Assembly (NCBI GenBank): GCA_046727435.1
Contig: JBKPCR010000112.1
Location: forward strand, 1 to 7,462
Length of the DNA: 7,462 bases
From: CAVPRW01 sp046727435 [NCBI: bacterium]
Lineage (GTDB): Bacteria; Tectomicrobia; Entotheonellia; J063
Reading direction: 5' to 3'
The translations under genes were made by a program, and so were the position numbers. Of this stretch, positions 1 to 7,462 are shown piece by piece. Positions within the stretch are counted from its first letter, which is position 1. The number at the start of each line of letters is the position of its first letter. The notes beneath the pieces are model-generated. The model did not search any database and had not been told where the DNA came from. It saw nothing but the letters and a program-made list of their open reading frames with translations.

Positions 1-517
1 GAATACGGTCCTCGCAGGCACGCTCGCGCACATTGTACGGGATCTGGATGCTGTGGATGCGCCCACTACGCATGATGTCCAGCATCGTCGGATAGGCGCT
101 GGTTGAGTAATGGGTAATACCGATGAGACCGATGCGCCCCCCATCCCGCAGTCGCTCGAGCGTCCCCAGATGTGTGCGCCAATCGACCAGATTATGGATC
201 TGCAGGACATCAATGTAGTCAGTTTTGAGCAGGCGGAAGGAGTTGTCGATCTGGGCTTCGCCCTGAGCCCGACCGTGGCACCAGACCTTGGTAGCGAACT
301 GAAAACGCTCCCGGCAGCCCTCGGTGGTTCGGCCAATCACCTGCTCACTCTGGCCGTACATCGGCGATGAGTCGACAAACGTCACCTGTGCGGCGATGCA
401 GCGCTCGACGATCTGACGCCGTACCGCGATGTCGTGTTCGGCGCTGACATCAAAAGTTCTGGCGGTTCCCAGGCCGATGACCGGCACCCGCAGGCTGCCA
501 AGCTGACGAAATTCCAT
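1..517 (-). CDS. Aldo/keto reductase, C-terminus cut by window edge
   Basis: NAD(P)H-dependent oxidoreductase of the aldo/keto reductase superfamily, a cytoplasmic TIM barrel. The visible 172 residues start MEFRQLGSLRVPVIGLGT, the usual AKR opening. The family's catalytic tetrad is all present: Asp49 and Tyr54 in FVDSSPMYGQSE, Lys77 in FATKVW and His108 in VLQIHN. The GRIGLIGITHYS segment after residue 127 is the standard barrel strand before the cofactor site. AKRs usually run near 300 residues, so the last 40% lies outside the window. The ATG follows the stop of the UGSC selenoprotein gene by 12 nt, and no strong Shine-Dalgarno is visible (only a weak GAGAG upstream), so translational coupling is plausible. 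The substrate cannot be inferred from sequence. Its place as third gene behind the UGSC pair suggests, but does not prove, a shared pathway. Confidence 0.93.
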   Translation of the reverse strand, partial: MEFRQLGSLRVPVIGLGTARTFDVSAEHDIAVRRQIVERCIAAQVTFVDSSPMYGQSEQVIGRTTEGCRERFQFATKVWCHGRAQGEAQIDNSFRLLKTDYIDVLQIHNLVDWRTHLGTLERLRDGGRIGLIGITHYSTSAYPTMLDIMRSGRIHSIQIPYNVRERACEDRI

Positions 518-529
518 CCTAGGCTCTCG

Positions 530-1087
530 CTATCGTTCGACCTGCCCCGTCAACAGGACACGGACCACCTGGTCGGCTATGTGTTGGGCTCCAGCCTCAA
601 TCTCGGCATCGGTGAGGGTCGACAATGGGTGTGGCATGTAGATTACCGGATAGTTGGGGACTCCCCACACCGTGGCTGTCGCTTGCCCGGTAGTCACGAA
701 GTGATCGGTGCAGATGGTCGCCGCCGGGATCCCAGCGCGATCGAGGTGAATGCCGTCGTGCACACTGCACGAGCTGCACGAGCCTCAGTCGCCAACCCCA
801 ACGATCACCAGATCGCAGGTGGTGGCGAGTTCTTTGATCGCCTCGGGGGCAGCTGGCTTCGAGGCCGATGGTTTGCGATGGTGCACGATATTGGTGAAGC
901 TATACCGGGCGTTGAGGATGGCGGCGACCGAATCCAACATGTTGTCCGCCTTCGATTTGCTATTGTCGAGCAACCCCACCCGCTTCTCCCGCAGACTCGA
1001 CAGCCGCGGCGCCAGGGCCGATTCTGCCACCGTGGCTTCATTCACCGGACTGATCAGCACCAGCTTCGGAACACTATCTGTTGGCAT
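530..1087 (-). CDS. UGSC-family selenoprotein (in-frame UGA = selenocysteine)
   Basis: A 185-residue cytoplasmic protein if UGA at 787-785 is read as selenocysteine 101. The frame is open on both sides of that codon: 100 residues before it, ending VIVGVGD, and 84 after it, beginning GSCSSCSVHDGI. The joined motif GVGD-U-GSCSSCSVHD is the defining signature of the UGSC (seleno)protein family, whose members carry Sec or Cys at this position. The family-typical segments SALAPRLSSLREKRVGLLDN and HHRKPSASKPA lie upstream, and TICTDHFVTT followed by NYPVIYMPHP lies downstream. This argues against a frameshift or pseudogene. A second redox pair (Cys104, Cys107) sits beside Sec101, suggesting thiol/selenol redox or conjugation chemistry, but no reaction is established that I know of. 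The ATG has a GAGAGG Shine-Dalgarno 7 nt upstream. The gene lies 13 nt after the Cys-rich partner gene and 12 nt before the aldo/keto reductase. Automatic annotation would split it into two short ORFs (1087-785 and 763-530). Confidence 0.9.
756..772 (-). promoter_or_regulatory. Putative bacterial SECIS hairpin
   Basis: Just 3' of the UGA the minus-strand RNA can form a perfect 7-bp stem: UCGUGCA (772-766) with UGCACGA (762-756), closing on the loop GUG (765-763). If the last A-U pair opens, the loop is AGUGU. Bacterial SECIS elements need a small apical loop with a G in its first two positions, about 16-37 nt after the UGA. Here the G at 765 is the 20th nucleotide after UGA, and it is followed by U as in the E. 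coli fdhF loop. The element lies inside the coding sequence, as expected for bacteria. SelB binding is inferred. Confidence 0.65.
785..787 (-). other. UGA recoded as selenocysteine
   Basis: The codon is TGA on the minus strand (787 to 785). It falls exactly at the U of the family's U-G-S-C motif, between Asp100 and Gly102, with family-like sequence continuing in the same frame to a TAG at 532-530. Reading it as Sec is inferred from motif position, intact downstream frame and the hairpin that follows. The selA, selB, selC and selD genes it would need are not in this window. Confidence 0.88.
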
Positions 1088-1100
1088 AGTCCGCCCTCTC

Positions 1101-2195
1101 TTATGAATGACGTGAACGCCAGGCGATGGGCCAGGTGACGGCGGTCGATGATACCTTTGGTCCCCAGCTCGGGATCACCGCACTCATGGCGCCCTCGTCC
1201 CCGCCGGCTGCGACAATCATGAGGTCCTCCGGGCGCTCAACCACCGAGACATACTGCTGCTCGTCGCCCGGCTCGACTGCGCCGGGTAAGCCGCCACCAC
1301 GTTTCAAATCGGCGACCGTCCGGCGCGCATGCTCGCTCAAGTAGGTGCGCACATCGCGCTTGGCCCAGCCGTGGCGGGAGATGGTATGCATATGCTCAGC
1401 GGCGACGACGATGACCATTTCCCCCTGGCGTGTGCCACTGGCGCTGTCGGCCACCGATCCCGAGGTGGTCAACGACGTCCCCAGGCTCGACATGGCGTCA
1501 GCAATCGTCGTTAGAACCCCTTCGGGCGTATGGCTCAAGCCATTGCGTACTTGCCGCGGTCCCTCACAGGCAAAGATGGTGACGGCGCTGGCTTCAGGGG
1601 CGAGACCACGCTCGACATGCAGCGGCAGCCAAGAGCTGTCCTGGGCATTCTCCGCGATACAATAGGTATACTTGCCAGGGTGACCCAGGCATGAGCGATC
1701 GAACAAACCTGGGATAGCGCCGCAGGTGTTCATCAACACCAGTCGCACGGCACGGCCGATGGTGGCGTTGGCACGATTGCCTGGTCCAAACAGATTGTTG
1801 CGACAGTTGATCTGCAGGTCCTCGACGACCGGACCGTTGACGATGACCAAAATCGCTGATCCGCCCAGGCTGGCCGAGGGACCCACCAGATTGAACGGCG
1901 GCTGCAGCATCGCTTCCACGGCCGCAATGACCACGGGAGCATATTCGGGCAGGCATCCCGCCATCACTGCATTGGCGACGACCTGTTCCACAGTCACCCG
2001 CCGCCTCCGCTCAGGAACCATGCCCAACATCTCGTCGCGTCTACGCTCAACGTGGGCTAGAAAGGCCGCCACCCGCTCCTCCGTTGGTGGGATGACCGGA
2101 AGCCCGTCGGTCCAGCCCTGCTGATAGCAAAACTCGATGGCGGCGATTGGGTCGATGGCCTCGCGTCCGGTCACCTCAAGCGTTGCCTGCGCCAT
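1101..2195 (-). CDS. Conserved cysteine-rich partner protein of UGSC selenoprotein
   Basis: 364 residues, no signal peptide or membrane segment seen, so probably cytoplasmic. I recognise it as a conserved protein of the kind found next to UGSC-family genes, but know no assigned function. Visible landmarks are GWTDGLPVIPPT at residues 27-38, NAVMAGCLPEY around 75-85, GGSAILVIVNGP around 111-122, and FGPGNRANATIGRA with LMNTCGAIPG around 136-163. The C-terminal stretch is GGDEGAMSAVIPSWG. At least seven cysteines (23, 81, 131, 158, 169, 179 and one in FACEGP) fit a thiol-redox or metal-binding role, which is inference. An upstream GTG at 2204 is in frame but overlaps the Shine-Dalgarno; ATG at 2195 has GAGGAG 8 nt upstream and is preferred. 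It is the first gene of the unit and ends 13 nt before the selenoprotein start. Confidence is high for the gene, low for any function. Confidence 0.85.
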   Translation of the reverse strand: MAQATLEVTGREAIDPIAAIEFCYQQGWTDGLPVIPPTEERVAAFLAHVERRRDEMLGMVPERRRRVTVEQVVANAVMAGCLPEYAPVVIAAVEAMLQPPFNLVGPSASLGGSAILVIVNGPVVEDLQINCRNNLFGPGNRANATIGRAVRLVLMNTCGAIPGLFDRSCLGHPGKYTYCIAENAQDSSWLPLHVERGLAPEASAVTIFACEGPRQVRNGLSHTPEGVLTTIADAMSSLGTSLTTSGSVADSASGTRQGEMVIVVAAEHMHTISRHGWAKRDVRTYLSEHARRTVADLKRGGGLPGAVEPGDEQQYVSVVERPEDLMIVAAGGDEGAMSAVIPSWGPKVSSTAVTWPIAWRSRHS

Positions 2196-2203
2196 GCCTG
2201 TCA

Positions 2204-2209
2204 CTCCTC
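2204..2209 (-). promoter_or_regulatory. Shine-Dalgarno deciding the partner-gene start
   Basis: GAGGAG lies 8 nt before the ATG at 2195. The alternative in-frame GTG at 2204 begins inside this motif, so the ATG is the likelier start. Confidence 0.75.
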
Positions 2210-2220
2210 ACTCGGGGGGC

Positions 2221-2254
2221 ATCGGTGCCAGCTGGGTGAGCCAAGCTGGCCGAT
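2221..2254 (-). promoter_or_regulatory. Leader hairpin in 5' UTR of the UGSC operon
   Basis: An inverted repeat has perfect 7-bp arms, GCCAGCT (2227-2233) and AGCTGGC (2244-2250), separated by 10 nt. Four more pairs (ATCG at 2221-2224 with CGAT at 2251-2254) extend it beyond a 2-nt bulge. It sits between the predicted transcription start (about 2258) and the Shine-Dalgarno at 2209-2204, so it would fill most of the leader RNA. It could be an operator if it acts as DNA, or a translational or stability element if it acts as RNA. It matches no riboswitch class I recognise. Confidence 0.5.
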
Positions 2255-2265
2255 CGTCGTCGACG

Positions 2266-2294
2266 AGTGTACTGGGGTTTGTGAGAGGTGTCAA
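2266..2294 (-). promoter_or_regulatory. Sigma-70-like promoter of the UGSC operon
   Basis: Minus strand: a perfect -35 TTGACA (2294-2289), a 17-nt spacer and a -10 TACACT (2271-2266, four of six consensus bases). Predicted start is near 2258, giving a leader of about 60 nt before the ATG at 2195. It is correctly placed and oriented for the partner gene, the selenoprotein and the aldo/keto reductase. Confidence 0.7.
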
Positions 2295-2316
2295 CGATGT
2301 CGAGTGGTATACTCCG

Positions 2317-2349
2317 CTTGCAATCGGCTTTCTCCCGCCAATCGCCAAG
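2317..2349 (-). terminator. Hairpin downstream of the aminotransferase gene, possible terminator
   Basis: In the minus-strand RNA, CUUG plus CGAUUGGC (2349-2337) pairs with GCCGAUUG plus CAAG (2328-2317) around an 8-nt loop GGGAGAAA. This makes 12 pairs with two G-U wobbles and one bulged G. It lies about 85 nt after the aminotransferase stop and before the promoter of the next unit. No U-tract follows, so intrinsic termination is doubtful. It could be a 3'-end stabiliser or part of factor-dependent termination. Confidence 0.3.
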
Positions 2350-2434
2350 ACGAGACGGCAGCGATGAAGGGAACTGACAGTAGCATGCGCAGAGCGCCCG
2401 TGCCCATGGCGCAAGAAGGCATCACCGCTGTCGA

Positions 2435-3373
2435 TTACGCCGTCACTAACACCTTTTGGTAGATCGGCGTGCGCCATTCGGCATGTTTGTCGGTGGTGCC
2501 GCGCACCACACGTAGATAGTGCTGCAAAATCTCCTGGGTGATGGGACCGGGTTGTCCATTGCCGACGGGAAAACGATCCACGCTGAGGATGGGGGTGACT
2601 TCATAACCGCTGCCGCAGAAAAACGCTTCATCGGCCACGTAGACCTGCGTGCGATCGATCTCCTGCTCCTTCACCGTGAGACCCATTTCTTCTTGGAACA
2701 GTTGCATCAGCGTGACACGGGTGATACTTTCCAGGATGTCAGCCGTGGTGGGCGGGGTAATCACCTCGCCTTTACGCACCATGAAGAACGACGCACCTGA
2801 GCCCTCGGCCACATGCCCCTGGGAGTTCAGGAGGATTGGTGCGTCGTACCCATCCACTGTTGCCTGCAAGCTCGCCAGGCGACCATTCTGGTAGTTGGCG
2901 CCGCATTTCAGGCGAATGGGAATAGCGTTATCCGAGGTGCGCACCCACGAACTGATGCAGCAGTGCATGCCTTTGCCCTCGTCGGTGAGGCGGCCACGGC
3001 GACGGAAGATGAGATACACCCCCACGGGCTCGGTCGAGGTGAGGCCCTCGGCGTCGACGTAGGCCACCAGGTAACCGTGGGCATCTTCCTTGAAATTATT
3101 GCCCTTGATGACCTCGCGCAGCGCTTCTTCCAGATCGGCGGGAGCATATGGCACCGAGAAGCGCATCATTTTCATCGACTCGGACCACCGCATGAAATGC
3201 TCCTGAAGCCTGAAAGCATAGGCGTCTTGCCTATCGTCGTTCCAATAGATACGAATGCCCTCAAACACGTTGGTGGCGTAGAACGCCGCGGCGGTCGAGA
3301 CGTGGATGGTCGCGTTCTGATACGGCACCAGTTGACCATTCATCCAGAGGTACTGCGGCAAGGCTGGTGGCAT
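2435..3373 (-). CDS. ilvE: Class IV PLP aminotransferase, branched-chain type
   Basis: Likely the branched-chain amino acid aminotransferase, which reversibly transfers the amino group between glutamate and the 2-oxo acids of valine, leucine and isoleucine, in the cytoplasm. With the preferred start it has 312 residues, close to E. coli IlvE (309). Class IV marks are the N-terminal LWMNGQLVPY, FEGIRIYW near residues 37-44, and Lys156 in RLKCGANYQNGRLA, which aligns with the PLP-Schiff-base lysine. Glu190 in VAEGSGASFF is the residue that contacts the PLP ring nitrogen in this fold, and GEVITPP follows. DEAFFCGSGYEVTPI near the C-terminus is also typical. Two in-frame ATGs occur, at 3379 and 3373; AAGGAG ends only 2 nt before the first but 8 nt before the second, so 3373 is chosen. 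It is divergent from ispG. A D-amino-acid or aminodeoxychorismate-type relative is less likely given the length and the FEGIR motif. Confidence 0.85.
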   Translation of the reverse strand: MPPALPQYLWMNGQLVPYQNATIHVSTAAAFYATNVFEGIRIYWNDDRQDAYAFRLQEHFMRWSESMKMMRFSVPYAPADLEEALREVIKGNNFKEDAHGYLVAYVDAEGLTSTEPVGVYLIFRRRGRLTDEGKGMHCCISSWVRTSDNAIPIRLKCGANYQNGRLASLQATVDGYDAPILLNSQGHVAEGSGASFFMVRKGEVITPPTTADILESITRVTLMQLFQEEMGLTVKEQEIDRTQVYVADEAFFCGSGYEVTPILSVDRFPVGNGQPGPITQEILQHYLRVVRGTTDKHAEWRTPIYQKVLVTA

Positions 3374-3381
3374 ACACATGT

Positions 3382-3470: not shown

Positions 3471-3505
3471 CCCTCACTCCAGCCCTGTCCCCGTGGGGGA
3501 GGGAG
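3471..3505. repeat. Degenerate copy of a dispersed GC-rich hairpin repeat
   Basis: The 35 bp from CCCTCACTCCAGC to the GGGGGAGGGAG end match the reverse complement of 5102-5136 at 28 of 35 positions by eye. Both have CCCTCAC-CCAGC followed by a small C-rich/G-rich inverted repeat; here TCCCC and GGGGA flank a short loop. It lies in the divergent region between ilvE and ispG, just upstream of the ispG promoter. Such short palindromic repeats are common in several environmental bacterial genomes. No transposase is linked to it. Confidence 0.7.
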
Positions 3506-3517
3506 AACAGGCGTTGC

Positions 3518-3619: not shown

Positions 3620-5779
3620 ATGATCTCAACGCTGCCGTATTGCGCCAGTCCATGTCATTACCAGCGCCGCCAGACGCGTGTGGTGTCTGTGGGAGATGTG
3701 CCGATGGGTGGGACCTACCCCATCCGCGTCCAGTCGATGACAACGACGGACACGTGCGATACTGAGGCGACTGTCAAGCAGATCATCCGGCTCGTCGAGG
3801 CCAACTGCGAAATCGTCCGAGTCACCGCCCCGTCGATCCGTGACGCCGAGAATTTGCGGGAAATCAAGGCCGCGCTGAGCCGGCAAGGAATTAAAGTCCC
3901 CCTTGTAGCTGACATTCATTTCACCCCCAACGCCGCTCTGATCGCCGCCGACTACGTCGAGAAGGTGCGCATCAATCCAGGCAACTACGCCGATCGCAAG
4001 CTGTTCCAAATCAAAGAGTACAGTGACAACGAGTACGAGGCGGAATTGGAGCGTCTGGAAAAGGCCTTCAAGCCGCTAGTGCTGAAGTGCAAGCACAACG
4101 GCGTCGCCATGCGGATCGGCACCAATCACGGATCGCTGTCTGACCGCATCATGAATCGCTATGGCGATACCCCGCTGGGCATGGTCGAGTCGGCGTTGGA
4201 GTTCGTACGTATCTGCGAGACCTATGGCTTCCGCGATATCGTCCTGTCCATGAAGGCATCCAATCCACAGGTGATGATCCAGGCCTATCGGTTGCTGGCC
4301 GCGCGTATGGATGAGCTGGGCATGGACTACCCATTCCATTTGGGAGTGACCGAGGCGGGGGATGGCGAGGATGGACGCATCAAATCAGCGATCGGCACTG
4401 GGGCACTGCTGGATGACGGCATCGGCGATACCGTGCGGGTGTCCCTCACCGAAGACCCGGTGGCCGAGGTGCCCGTCTGTTACGCGTTGATCAAACCCTA
4501 TAACGATCGACTCCAACACCTCCCAGCCTCCCAGCCAGAGGGCATCGACCTGCGATCGCGCGCGTGTCCGTTGAACGGCCTCGAGATCTCTGAAGCGCGG
4601 AACCCCTATGAGTATGGCCGGCGGTTCGCACGCTGGCTCGATGTCGGTGGGCTGCGGTTAGGTGGGTCCTATCCGGTGCGTGTCGAGCTGGCGCCGCGTA
4701 TCCCGCTGGCGGAGGTCGCAAACCTCATGTACGAGATCGAGGCGCTCGTGCAGCCGGGACGTAAGGAGCTGCCTCCGTGCGAGATCATCCAGTTGCGGGT
4801 CGAGACCGAGCCTGATATTAAGGCCTGTATCGCCGTTGCACAGGGGCTGCGCGCCCGTGGCCTAATGGCGCCGCTAGCGGTCAACGTGTCGTCGGCGCTT
4901 CCAGGGTGGACGCGACTCTTGCCCTATGTCGCGAAGCTGAACGTCAGCCCCGCTCCTCACGCGGACGAGTCCGTGTGGGCTGATCGGTTAGGGGAGCTGA
5001 TCGAAGCGGTGAAAGCAGCCGGTCGCGCCCTGCAGTGGAACCTGAGCCCGGCATGTATTCCCTCCCCCTCGACGGGGGAGGGCGAGGATGGAAGGAGTAT
5101 ACCCCCTCTCCCTCCGGGAGAGAGCTGGGGTGAGGGAAGAACGCTCGCAGAACTTGTCAACACTGCCATGGCGCTTGCCCATCTCTGCCGGGCGCACACG
5201 TTCGATGGCTATCTGATGGCCATTGATGGGGTGCCAACGATCCCAGCCTACCGCCTCCTGGCCGCAGAGCTAGCTGCTGCAGGATTGGAGACCCCCTTGA
5301 CGCTGAAAACCTCACGGTATGCCCCAGAGGACGCGCTGCTGTGCGCCTCACTCACGCTGGGATCGCTCCTGTGTGACGGCTTTGGGGATGTTATCGAGGT
5401 GGGGAGCGACCTCCCTTCAACCGATGCCCTACGTTTGAGCTACAATATCTTGCAAGGGGCGCGGCGGCGCATCTCGAAGACGGAGTTCATCTCCTGCCCA
5501 TCGTGCGGTCGCACGCAATTCGACCTGGAGACGACGACCCAGCGCATCAAGTCTCAGACCAACCATCTGACCGGGGTGAAGATCGCCATTATGGGCTGCA
5601 TCGTGAATGGGCCGGGGGAGATGGCCGATGCCGATTTCGGCTACGTCGGAGCGGGTCCAGGAAAGATCAACCTCTATGTCGGCAAGGAGTGCGTCGAGCG
5701 CAACATCGCTTTCGAGCTCGCCGATCAAAAGCTCATCGAGCTGATCAAAGCCCAGGGCAGGTGGATTGAGCCTGCGTGA
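3620..5779 (+). CDS. ispG: 4-hydroxy-3-methylbut-2-enyl diphosphate synthase, large three-domain form
   Basis: IspG (GcpE) converts 2-C-methyl-D-erythritol 2,4-cyclodiphosphate to HMBPP, the penultimate MEP-pathway step for isoprenoids, using a [4Fe-4S] cluster and an external electron donor. At 719 residues it is the large form known from plants, Chlamydia and some other bacteria, not the roughly 370-residue E. coli form. The first TIM barrel carries GGTYPIRVQSMTTTDT (30-45), VADIHF and KVRINPGNY, then IGTNHGSLSDRIM and SMKASNP. A central insert domain spans roughly 300-600. The C-terminal reductase-like domain binds the cluster with Cys626 and Cys629 (SCPSCGRTQFD), Cys660 (IMGCIVNGPGE) and Glu667; the Cys-to-Glu spacing of 7 equals E. 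coli's. GAGGG precedes the ATG by a few nt, and the N-terminus YCASPCHYQRR matches family starts. A dispersed repeat inside the gene encodes about residues 481-507. The gene is monocistronic here and converges on the downstream minus-strand gene. Confidence 0.97.
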   Translation: MISTLPYCASPCHYQRRQTRVVSVGDVPMGGTYPIRVQSMTTTDTCDTEATVKQIIRLVEANCEIVRVTAPSIRDAENLREIKAALSRQGIKVPLVADIHFTPNAALIAADYVEKVRINPGNYADRKLFQIKEYSDNEYEAELERLEKAFKPLVLKCKHNGVAMRIGTNHGSLSDRIMNRYGDTPLGMVESALEFVRICETYGFRDIVLSMKASNPQVMIQAYRLLAARMDELGMDYPFHLGVTEAGDGEDGRIKSAIGTGALLDDGIGDTVRVSLTEDPVAEVPVCYALIKPYNDRLQHLPASQPEGIDLRSRACPLNGLEISEARNPYEYGRRFARWLDVGGLRLGGSYPVRVELAPRIPLAEVANLMYEIEALVQPGRKELPPCEIIQLRVETEPDIKACIAVAQGLRARGLMAPLAVNVSSALPGWTRLLPYVAKLNVSPAPHADESVWADRLGELIEAVKAAGRALQWNLSPACIPSPSTGEGEDGRSIPPLPPGESWGEGRTLAELVNTAMALAHLCRAHTFDGYLMAIDGVPTIPAYRLLAAELAAAGLETPLTLKTSRYAPEDALLCASLTLGSLLCDGFGDVIEVGSDLPSTDALRLSYNILQGARRRISKTEFISCPSCGRTQFDLETTTQRIKSQTNHLTGVKIAIMGCIVNGPGEMADADFGYVGAGPGKINLYVGKECVERNIAFELADQKLIELIKAQGRWIEPA
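5060..5138. repeat. Two hairpin repeats inserted in frame within ispG
   Basis: Two adjoining GC-rich inverted repeats lie in the coding sequence. The first has 9-bp perfect arms CCCTCCCCC (5060-5068) and GGGGGAGGG (5074-5082) around a 5-nt loop. The second has 7-bp arms CTCTCCC (5106-5112) and GGGAGAG (5116-5122) around TCC, and continues into CTGGGGTGAGGG. Read in the gene frame they encode PSPSTGEGEDG and PPLPPGESWGEGR, a low-complexity Pro/Gly/Glu peptide unlike the rest of IspG. The second unit is the inverted counterpart of 3471-3505. Confidence 0.8.
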
Positions 5780-5780
5780 G

Positions 5781-6629
5781 CTACTCTCTCCACACCAACC
5801 AAGTACCCGGCAACCCGTCAATGGGCGCACCGATGTCGATCACGCCCTCATGCTGCAGGCGGGTTGCCGCCTCCTCTACCTCGACGCGGGGGACCCCCAC
5901 CACACGCTCGGTCTGCGTTAGCGAAGCGTAATACACCACCGACAGATACTGTCTGGTGAGGCGATACACCGCCTCCTGGCGTAAAATCTCTCGCCCACGG
6001 GCCACTGGCTCGGGCAGCCAGGTTTCCAGCAGATCCCAAACGTAGGTAAAGGTCGGTTCGTAACGGGCCTCGATCATGGTGATGGAGAGCTTGCGCTGCA
6101 GTTCGGCGATCGCCTGATCGAAGATCAGCCGGCTCCTGGAGGCGTCAAGGTGCGTGCGGCGTTTCAGCTCCTTGGTGGTTAGGGGATGGTCCTCGACCAA
6201 CACATCCATGATCTGCTTAGCGGCGCGTGACAGCCGACCAGCTTCATAGTCGTAGAGATATTGCTCGTCGTGTGCAGAGCCATGCAGAGCATAGAAATCC
6301 GGGAAATGCGCCAGCGCTACCATGCTGGGTTTCCCGAGAATCAACTTGCCGTAGTACACAAGGCGTTTGGCGGGGAGGAGATCTTTGAGATTCCACGTGA
6401 GCATCAACTCCGGGTCATGATGTGAATGCTCTGGAAAGACCGGATTACGCCGCCCACAAACCGCCACCCACAAGCAGGGAAGCTGCTGGGTACGGTTGGT
6501 GAACACCAGGCAGAAGCCGACGTCCTCGACGAACTGCAGCGCCGTCCGTTCATTGTGGACGCGTAGGCGAGATCGCCGGCGGAAGCGTCGGTCCCGTTGT
6601 TGCTCCAGGTCCTCAACAGAATACCTCAT
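5781..6629 (-). CDS. AlkZ-related winged-helix protein
   Basis: 282 residues, cytoplasmic, resembling AlkZ-related proteins: relatives of the YcaQ/AlkZ DNA glycosylases (HTH_42 family), which unhook interstrand crosslinks or remove alkylated bases. Landmarks are LQFVEDVGFCLVF (31-43), QLPCLWVAVCG (49-59), WNLKDLLPAKRLVYYGKLI (79-97) and PDFYALHG. A winged-helix segment follows (about 136-190, AAKQIMDVLVEDHPLTTKEL), then a further helix-turn-helix-like C-terminus. It is shorter than E. coli YcaQ (about 410) and Streptomyces AlkZ (about 370). I could not see the catalytic Gln-x-Gln motif, so glycosylase activity is uncertain and it may only bind DNA. GGGGAAG lies about 9 nt before the ATG. Its stop and that of ispG are separated by one base, so the two genes converge with no room for a separate terminator. 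Confidence 0.78.
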   Translation of the reverse strand: MRYSVEDLEQQRDRRFRRRSRLRVHNERTALQFVEDVGFCLVFTNRTQQLPCLWVAVCGRRNPVFPEHSHHDPELMLTWNLKDLLPAKRLVYYGKLILGKPSMVALAHFPDFYALHGSAHDEQYLYDYEAGRLSRAAKQIMDVLVEDHPLTTKELKRRTHLDASRSRLIFDQAIAELQRKLSITMIEARYEPTFTYVWDLLETWLPEPVARGREILRQEAVYRLTRQYLSVVYYASLTQTERVVGVPRVEVEEAATRLQHEGVIDIGAPIDGLPGTWLVWRE

Positions 6630-6986: not shown

Positions 6987-7462
6987 ATGGAGCAGGTTCA
7001 AACTGTTCTCGGCCCCGTCCGCGTCGAGCAACTCGGCGTCACGCTCATGCATGAACACCTGGTCATTGGGTGGCCGGGGTGGGTTTTCGACCCGCTGGCG
7101 CGCTTCGACCGCATGCGGGTCACCAGCTTGTTGATCGAGCGTCTGAATGAGCTGAAAGCACTGGGGGTGTCGACCTTTGTCGATCCCTGTCCAATTGAAC
7201 TCGGTCGTAATCCCGAGCTGGCGGCTGAGGTCGCCGAGGCGACAGGGATGAATATCATCTGCGCCACCGGCCTCTACACGAATCGACTGGGCATCCCGGT
7301 GTATTTCCGACAGCGCTCGGTGGATGAGATCGCCGAGATCTTTGCGCGCGAGTTGAGCGAGGGGATCGGGTCCTCCGGTATTCGAGCCGGGCTTATCAAA
7401 TGCGCCACCGGTCTGAATGAGATCACCCGGCATGAGGAAAAATGCCTGCGGGCGGCAGGCCG
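6987..7462 (+). CDS. Phosphotriesterase-family metallohydrolase, cut by window end
   Basis: First 158 residues of an amidohydrolase-superfamily TIM barrel of the phosphotriesterase family, whose members hydrolyse phosphotriesters, lactones or related esters with a two-metal centre. The start MEQVQTVLGPVRVEQLGVTL leads into the His-x-His metal ligands His22 and His24 (LMHEHL). The bridging, usually carboxylated lysine is Lys138 in AGLIKCATG. GVSTFVDPCPIELGRNP and IICATGLYT are typical strands between them. The later His ligands and the catalytic Asp lie beyond the window. AAGGAG (6972-6977) is 9 nt before the ATG, fixing the start. It is the first gene after an extended -10 promoter. The substrate cannot be told from this part; a lactonase-like activity is as likely as a true phosphotriesterase. 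Confidence 0.93.
   Translation, partial: MEQVQTVLGPVRVEQLGVTLMHEHLVIGWPGWVFDPLARFDRMRVTSLLIERLNELKALGVSTFVDPCPIELGRNPELAAEVAEATGMNIICATGLYTNRLGIPVYFRQRSVDEIAEIFARELSEGIGSSGIRAGLIKCATGLNEITRHEEKCLRAAG

Follow-up and report, generated by a model that had tools for sequence, protein, structure and literature searches.

UGSC proteins (PF24696/NF041046) accounted for 8.2% of the selenoprotein genes in an ocean survey and ranked among its commonest families, according to the accessible text of PMC9402790. PMC13188914, in the part available, counts them among largely uncharacterised selenoproteins and credits the family to a 2007 paper. A fusion of UGSC to a conserved unknown domain, UGSC/Unknown_1, is reported from GOS data in the accessible portion of PMC2398784. 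Among the closest described systems outside the family is GrdB (PF07355, TIGR01917), which bears the selenocysteine (Sec) of protein B in glycine/sarcosine/betaine reductase and to which UGSC shows a remote similarity; GrdB likewise carries Sec, is encoded beside a second subunit and occurs as several paralogues per genome, eight grdB genes being recorded for one strain in the available text of PMC10838667. From the same partial source comes FarB/FarE of Cloacibacillus, a GrdB/GrdE-like two-protein Sec system proposed for reductive carbon-heteroatom cleavage, in this case C-F cleavage of fluoroacetate. FarB/FarE is built on GrdB and GrdE, whereas our own comparisons of UGSC and its partner covered the GrdB- and GrdE-like proteins of related genomes. 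The UGSC gene analysed here lies in a window of 7,462 nucleotides, the whole stretch of DNA under study, and shows no difference in kind from the described family: it shares the profile score, the UGSC motif, the in-frame UGA and the bSECIS-like hairpin. The additions made here are an apparently obligate partner, the finding that Sec alone is used in the genomes searched, and an expansion to 12 matches in one genome (G224).

The sequence-only reading, an earlier note on this DNA, had joined two short minus-strand ORFs into one gene, with a UGA at the U of the U-G-S-C motif and a frame continuing to TAG. This description proved right, including the coordinates and the length of 185 residues. 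The ORF list has 785-1087, whose 100 codons run up to a TGA, in the same frame as 530-763, and with TGA translated as U the product reads ...GVGD-U101-GSCSSCSVHD... and runs on to the TAG. The read-through product scored 205.6 bits against the Pfam profile PF24696 (cut-off 25; residues 11-179) and 160.9 bits against the NCBIfam profile NF041046 (cut-off 125; residues 35-178). Since both alignments run across residue 101, the family match covers the UGA, and because the read-through product matches both profiles across it, the in-frame UGA is more than chance. The product passes both curated cut-offs, with the UGA occupying the leading position of [UC]GSC. The window gene is a genuine selenoprotein and a fresh member of the UGSC family, which had been described by 2008 (PMC2398784, accessible text). 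The earlier remark that the gene is hidden from ORF callers holds for simple callers, but curated family models do recognise the gene when its UGA is translated. Annotation that halts at the UGA breaks UGSC-family copies. The partner gene upstream and the relationship to GrdB were both absent from the sequence-only reading.

Table 1. Features of the 7,462-nucleotide window; positions count from its first letter.
Feature	Position	Strand	Remarks
Aldo/keto reductase (cut)	2-517	-	
UGSC-family selenoprotein gene	530-1087	-	185 codons, one of them an in-frame UGA; TAG stop at 530-532
SECIS-like hairpin	756-772	-	7-bp stem, GUG loop 763-765, UGA-to-loop distance 19 nt
UGA, almost certainly read as selenocysteine (U101)	785-787	-	TGA in the same column of 64/64 relatives and the window
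Possible Shine-Dalgarno sequence GAGAGGG	1094-1100	-	Within the 13 nt that separate the partner stop from the UGSC start; putative, from sequence
Partner protein gene	1101-2204	-	367 codons; undescribed family; the UGSC start codon follows after 13 nt; invariant Cys84 in AGC-x-P
Branched-chain aminotransferase	2435-3379	-	
IspG	3620-5779	+	719 residues
AlkZ-related protein (PF24741)	5781-6629	-	
Phosphotriesterase-family protein (cut)	6987-7460	+	

An alignment with UGSC homologues, which the sequence-only reading had proposed as a check, placed a stop codon in the U column of every relative, always TGA (65/65 with the window). These 64 loci were found by peptide patterns, one of which adjoins the UGSC motif, and therefore the survey was redone with the Pfam profile. 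Nine of 60 genomes related to G001 contained profile matches, and exactly one TGA was present in 35 of the 37 matches; the remaining two were fragments of the second half of the profile (positions 94-171 and 112-171) that start after the U. For the phylum of G001 this came to an in-frame TGA in 27 of 28 matches, the 28th being a fragment that begins past the U. From the phylum of G002, 151 genomes were drawn, 11 had matches, and all 41 matches carried exactly one in-frame TGA. A Cys form of UGSC was not met in the genomes searched (60 related to G001, 151 from the phylum of G002). Such forms do exist, because the accessible text of PMC2398784 counted 21 Cys beside 255 Sec homologues in ocean (GOS) data, in line with the earlier statement that the family has either residue at this position. 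Compared with L001, the closest relative of the window at 72% identity, the gene had a dN/dS of 0.088 in the 98 codons that precede the UGA and of 0.09 in the 81 that follow it. The ratios are rough because synonymous sites are close to saturation; for the 70 codons past the hairpin pN/pS was 0.215 and dS was not computable. As judged from these sequences, both sides of the UGA appear to be under equal protein-level constraint. The window is a single assembled sequence, which would allow the UGA to be a plain stop or a sequencing error that leaves two short genes or a pseudogene. This explanation has next to no chance of being right, as the UGA recurs in all 64 relatives and all 41 profile hits of the second phylum and the hairpin downstream is frozen and covarying; UGA conservation and the equal dN/dS together rule out a pseudogene or sequencing error. 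A reassigned sense codon was also rejected: the ispG frame in the same window terminates with UGA, so UGA is not reassigned wholesale. Sec coding emerges directly from these computations, and decoding of the codon as selenocysteine is practically certain.

The hairpin that the sequence-only reading noticed downstream of the UGA agrees with the bSECIS rules as given in the accessible text of PMC13188914, with its 7-bp stem, GUG loop and 19-nt spacing, and the 42 nt following the UGA gave -15.3 kcal/mol. Its plain folding energy is unremarkable. The region 3' of the UGA folded no lower than shuffled sequence (z -0.45), and the minimum-energy structure was a different one in 6 of 32 singly folded sequences (L090-L093, L096, L097). 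An Rfam scan of the window at gathering thresholds returned no matches. The evolutionary evidence is stronger, and it is because of this evidence, not the folding energy, that the hairpin is convincing. Codons +6 to +9 after the UGA are identical in 64/64 sequences, and the mean normalised entropy of codons +3 to +10 was 0.115 (n=8) versus 0.724 elsewhere (n=61; Mann-Whitney p 3.7e-6, a descriptive value because the stretch was picked after the sequences had been seen). This comparison took the window and 63 loci, 64 close sequences in all, after the frameshifted L064 and L082, a duplicate of L001, had been dropped, and it was confined to columns with the amino acid at least 90% conserved. One locus-finding pattern, CSVHDGIH, covers codons +6 to +13 and was back-translated degenerately, in an exact way that is not visible; the same hairpin recurs in paralogues found by profile rather than by peptide pattern. 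For covariation, 8 close sequences were aligned with 29 distant paralogues, giving 37 in total of which 35 are distinct. Of the stem cells, 93.9% were paired and 23 cells, in three of the seven pairs, had changed on both sides. The paired percentage, the count of cells changed on both sides and the covariation score were each reached by 0/500 shuffles and collapsed once the partner strand was slid. The number of pairs with two-sided changes (130/500 shuffles as high) and the further pair types (51/500) were not unusual alone, and the lowest stem pair was broken in 12/35. The hairpin is thus a feature conserved as a paired structure with frozen synonymous sites, and this part of the earlier claim stood.

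To place the host, the IspG protein of the window was compared with 18 genomes. It matched G001 and G029-G032 at 57-62% over its full length; of the 13 others, one was unmatched and the rest (12) showed 39-49% across about the first 280 residues. By IspG, the host would group with G001 and G029-G032, which we take as its apparent phylum. L001, labelled a Proteobacteria MAG, also groups in the phylum of these five collection genomes, and its label may be wrong. Both UGSC and tRNA-Sec were found in all five genomes of this phylum in the collection. At E 1e-9, tRNA-Sec was detected in 9/9 UGSC-positive, 6/11 UGSC-negative and 3/14 control genomes, and the tRNA gene of G001 was read by ARAGORN as tRNA-SeC with anticodon TCA. 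Among the 28 genomes of the relatives, 23 had a tRNA-Sec match of at least 66 bits, G005 had one of 56, and G007, G009, G014 and G018 had none above 47.3; this score line is our own, other class II tRNAs reaching about 55 and 5/14 controls passing the gathering score. selB was above cut-off in 13 of 16 genomes and below it in three, and selA was above cut-off in 12 and below or missing in four. In G001, selB directly follows the end of selA, which is cut by a contig edge. The missing tRNA-Sec, selA and selB are likely draft gaps, as the genomes are mostly drafts.

Immediately upstream of the UGSC gene lies the gene of the partner protein. A partner homologue was found on the same strand as UGSC in 85 of 94 loci, upstream in 75 and downstream in 10 (about 5.5 kb away in L047), and was not seen within the stretch searched in the other nine; L082 was dropped from this count as a duplicate. 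UGSC and partner are in one reading frame in four of the 85 loci (L081, L095, L100 and L102). These recall the fusion described in the accessible text of PMC2398784, but the window carries a two-gene pair, and identity of the partner with Unknown_1 is not implied. The two genes also occur together across genomes. Among the 60 genomes related to G001, the partner was present in exactly the same nine as UGSC, and in the phylum of G002 it was found in 11/11 UGSC-positive and 0/20 UGSC-negative genomes (31 searched, including 20 of the 140 UGSC-negative ones). In this second phylum, a partner lay at most 700 bases from 36 of 41 UGSC matches, on the same strand in 36/36. Matches per genome agree as well (78 UGSC and 84 partner matches over 20 genomes, Pearson 0.975), where matches are not equal to genes: one UGSC and one partner of G029 are each split over two matches, and several matches in G224, the genome with the most UGSC matches, lie at contig edges.

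UGSC and partner have diverged in step. Their pairwise distances over 24 loci (the window, 17 paralogues and six of seven hand-picked close loci) correlated with r 0.88, and 0/5000 permutations did as well; for 15 paralogues in five genomes, with partners swapped only within a genome, r was 0.90 and again 0/5000 were as good. Because the paired distances beat permutations even within genomes, each UGSC keeps its own partner. We consider it very probable that UGSC and the upstream protein form an obligate functional pair, and a physical complex of the two may be presumed from the pairing and co-divergence. An obligate UGSC partner is not described in the accessible texts of PMC2398784, PMC13188914, PMC9312934, PMC7539508, PMC9402790 and PMC5029168, a literature search that most subscription journals lay outside, and strict pairing is also unmentioned in the one-line descriptions of PF24696 and NF041046.

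Pfam families were tallied for 115 proteins near 20 UGSC loci (G001, G029, G030 and G080) and, as a control, for a random 115 proteins shorter than 900 aa taken from 20 other regions in G029, G030 and G080. The top families of the two tallies differ, but no third gene recurs beside the UGSC-partner module, any one family accounting for at most four of the 115 proteins, and no conserved neighbour points to a substrate or an electron donor. Homologues of the aldo/keto reductase and branched-chain aminotransferase of the window were met in the loci of the 64 relatives as distant ones only, in L026 and L039. Two orphan partners, at 1971-3002 (+) of L123 (G031) and 1995-3026 (-) of L124 (G030), had no UGSC within the 5 kb searched; both adjoin a TlpA-like redoxin and a small Cys-containing protein, as named from reading the sequence, and perhaps represent a Sec-free version of the module.

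To characterise the two proteins, near-duplicates were thinned, leaving 48 of 87 UGSC and 33 of 72 partner proteins in the alignments. The UGSC set left out L064, L082, L081, L095, L100, L102, L059 and L090 (duplicate, frameshifted, fused or cut), and the partner set left out L082 and L083, the partner of L083 being split over two frames. In the partner, Cys84 is invariant in 33/33 and Cys182 nearly invariant. No convincing family was found for the 33 partner proteins (best Pfam E 0.0022, best NCBIfam E 0.0083, both scattered), and a PDB sequence search with the partner profile gave no hits at E 10. GrdE was tried and rejected as an identity: PF09338 had no hit in the 33 members at E 1, and hhalign gave E 0.48 over 16 columns. 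The structural model of the partner (pLDDT 87.2) had only weak fold matches. The best Foldseek hits in the PDB were to class I fumarases (E 1.9e-4, prob 0.91, TM 0.25), with a cyanuric acid hydrolase next (E 1.7e-3). Together with the invariant Cys84, this could point to a lyase or hydratase whose main catalyst is the partner, fumarase- or cyclic amide hydrolase-like, with UGSC activating or repairing it. This seems quite improbable, however, since the fumarase rows have TM-scores of about 0.2-0.3 and rmsd of 16-20 A, the best VIA-align Z of 5.6 (chorismate mutase) and the 4.9 to a fumarase are in the noise range, and one strictly invariant Cys in 33 sequences is too few for a three-Cys cluster.

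In the AlphaFold2 model of UGSC (pLDDT 93.6), strands and helices alternate within the domain and Sec101 follows the third strand; U101 and C104 are invariant in the UGSC alignment. The 50 VIA-align rows listed for this model are mixed alpha/beta chains. Z reaches 10.5, for a designed protein, and the rows also include response regulators, PurE, lumazine synthase and a flavodiiron protein; none of the 50 is named thioredoxin. Such mixed alpha/beta neighbours of a predicted model would indicate no function. A PDB sequence search with the UGSC profile returned three low-scoring, chance-like hits. In the thioredoxin fold, the redox motif follows the first strand. The order of elements in the UGSC model does not look like that fold, which the accessible text of PMC2398784 calls likely for UGSC. 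That text, the UxxC motif found in many redox selenoproteins with both of its residues invariant, the conserved cysteines of the partner and the TlpA-like redoxin near the two orphan partners would all suit a general thiol/selenol oxidoreductase of thioredoxin- or peroxiredoxin-like type, with the partner as its dedicated client or reductant. We think this unlikely, given the position of Sec after the third strand, the mixed alpha/beta rows and a sequence similarity that points to GrdB instead; moreover, a housekeeping reductant would not usually come as many paralogues in one genome, each tied to a separate partner.

The similarity to GrdB is distant. TIGR01917 matched UGSC with E 7.9e-7 over residues 61-178, at 28.3 bits against a cut-off of 602.2, and PF07355 was not among the UGSC hits at E 0.001; membership of UGSC in the GrdB family is rejected on both counts. 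Profile comparison by hhalign with the GrdB-like proteins of related genomes gave E 1.5e-4 and a probability of 51.9% with the U columns aligned, although both profiles carry Cys for Sec, which favours alignment of that column; PrdB-like proteins gave E 4.9e-4 and a probability of 32%. From these comparisons, UGSC appears to be remotely related to the Sec domain of GrdB. Unlike GrdB, it is one 185-residue domain, and its partner is not GrdE. GrdB- and GrdE-like genes occur separately in UGSC-carrying genomes: PF07355 matches were present in 20/21 related genomes and GrdE-like genes in 7/8 genomes searched, and in G080 the GrdE-like, GrdB-like, partner and UGSC genes stand consecutively on one strand within 7.5 kb. 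As a separate observation, in at least 11 of 20 GrdB-/PrdB-like loci (PF07355; L103-L122) the open frame stops at a UGA in the place expected for Sec; L104, for instance, reads ...ILTST-U-GTSTRCG. The PF07355 matches run to the last model positions just before this UGA, and a profile search alone misses the Sec.

Because of the remote GrdB similarity and the partner pairing, we propose a reductase with UGSC as its Sec subunit. The SelB and tRNA-Sec of the host would decode the UGA as Sec under the direction of the hairpin. The product would be a single domain of predicted Rossmann/flavodoxin-like fold, with Sec101 at the start of a helix and three residues before the invariant Cys104. It would work as an obligate pair with the upstream protein, putatively the substrate subunit and main holder of the substrate. 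The selenolate might then attack a substrate carbon and cleave a carbon-heteroatom bond, as in the Sec subunits of glycine, betaine and D-proline reductase, after which Sec with Cys104 would be re-reduced by a thiol donor. The proposed reduction of fluoroacetate by FarB/FarE (PMC10838667) is a precedent for chemistry of this kind on a GrdB-like scaffold. UGSC-partner paralogues within one genome would differ in substrate. Taken as a whole, the explanation by Sec decoding, an obligate pair and a two-subunit reductase that depends on Sec and breaks a bond in its substrate seems rather probable to us. The GrdB-like bond-cleaving chemistry taken for itself is a doubtful suggestion, and the active-site chemistry and range of substrates are likewise inferred. 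More broadly, and tentatively, the pair could represent a novel class of two-subunit selenoenzymes, in which a stripped-down GrdB-like Sec subunit and a substrate subunit unrelated to GrdE have been multiplied to attack many organic substrates reductively in free-living, mostly uncultured bacteria, with Sec and never Cys in the genomes searched. The partner, the predicted fold, the remote link to GrdB and the near-absolute use of Sec make the function of UGSC experimentally approachable as a pair.

Two further observations concern the other end of the window. The IspG protein contains an in-frame insert (SPSTGEGEDGRSIPPLPPGESWGEGRT) near residues 480-510, similar in appearance to an intergenic repeat that has been translated. 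The relative at L168 has gaps opposite 20 residues of the insert, and the DNA at 3492-3512, in the interval between ilvE and ispG, is partly complementary (81% over 21 nt). The gene of the AlkZ-related protein stands tail to tail with ispG, with a single base between the two stop codons.
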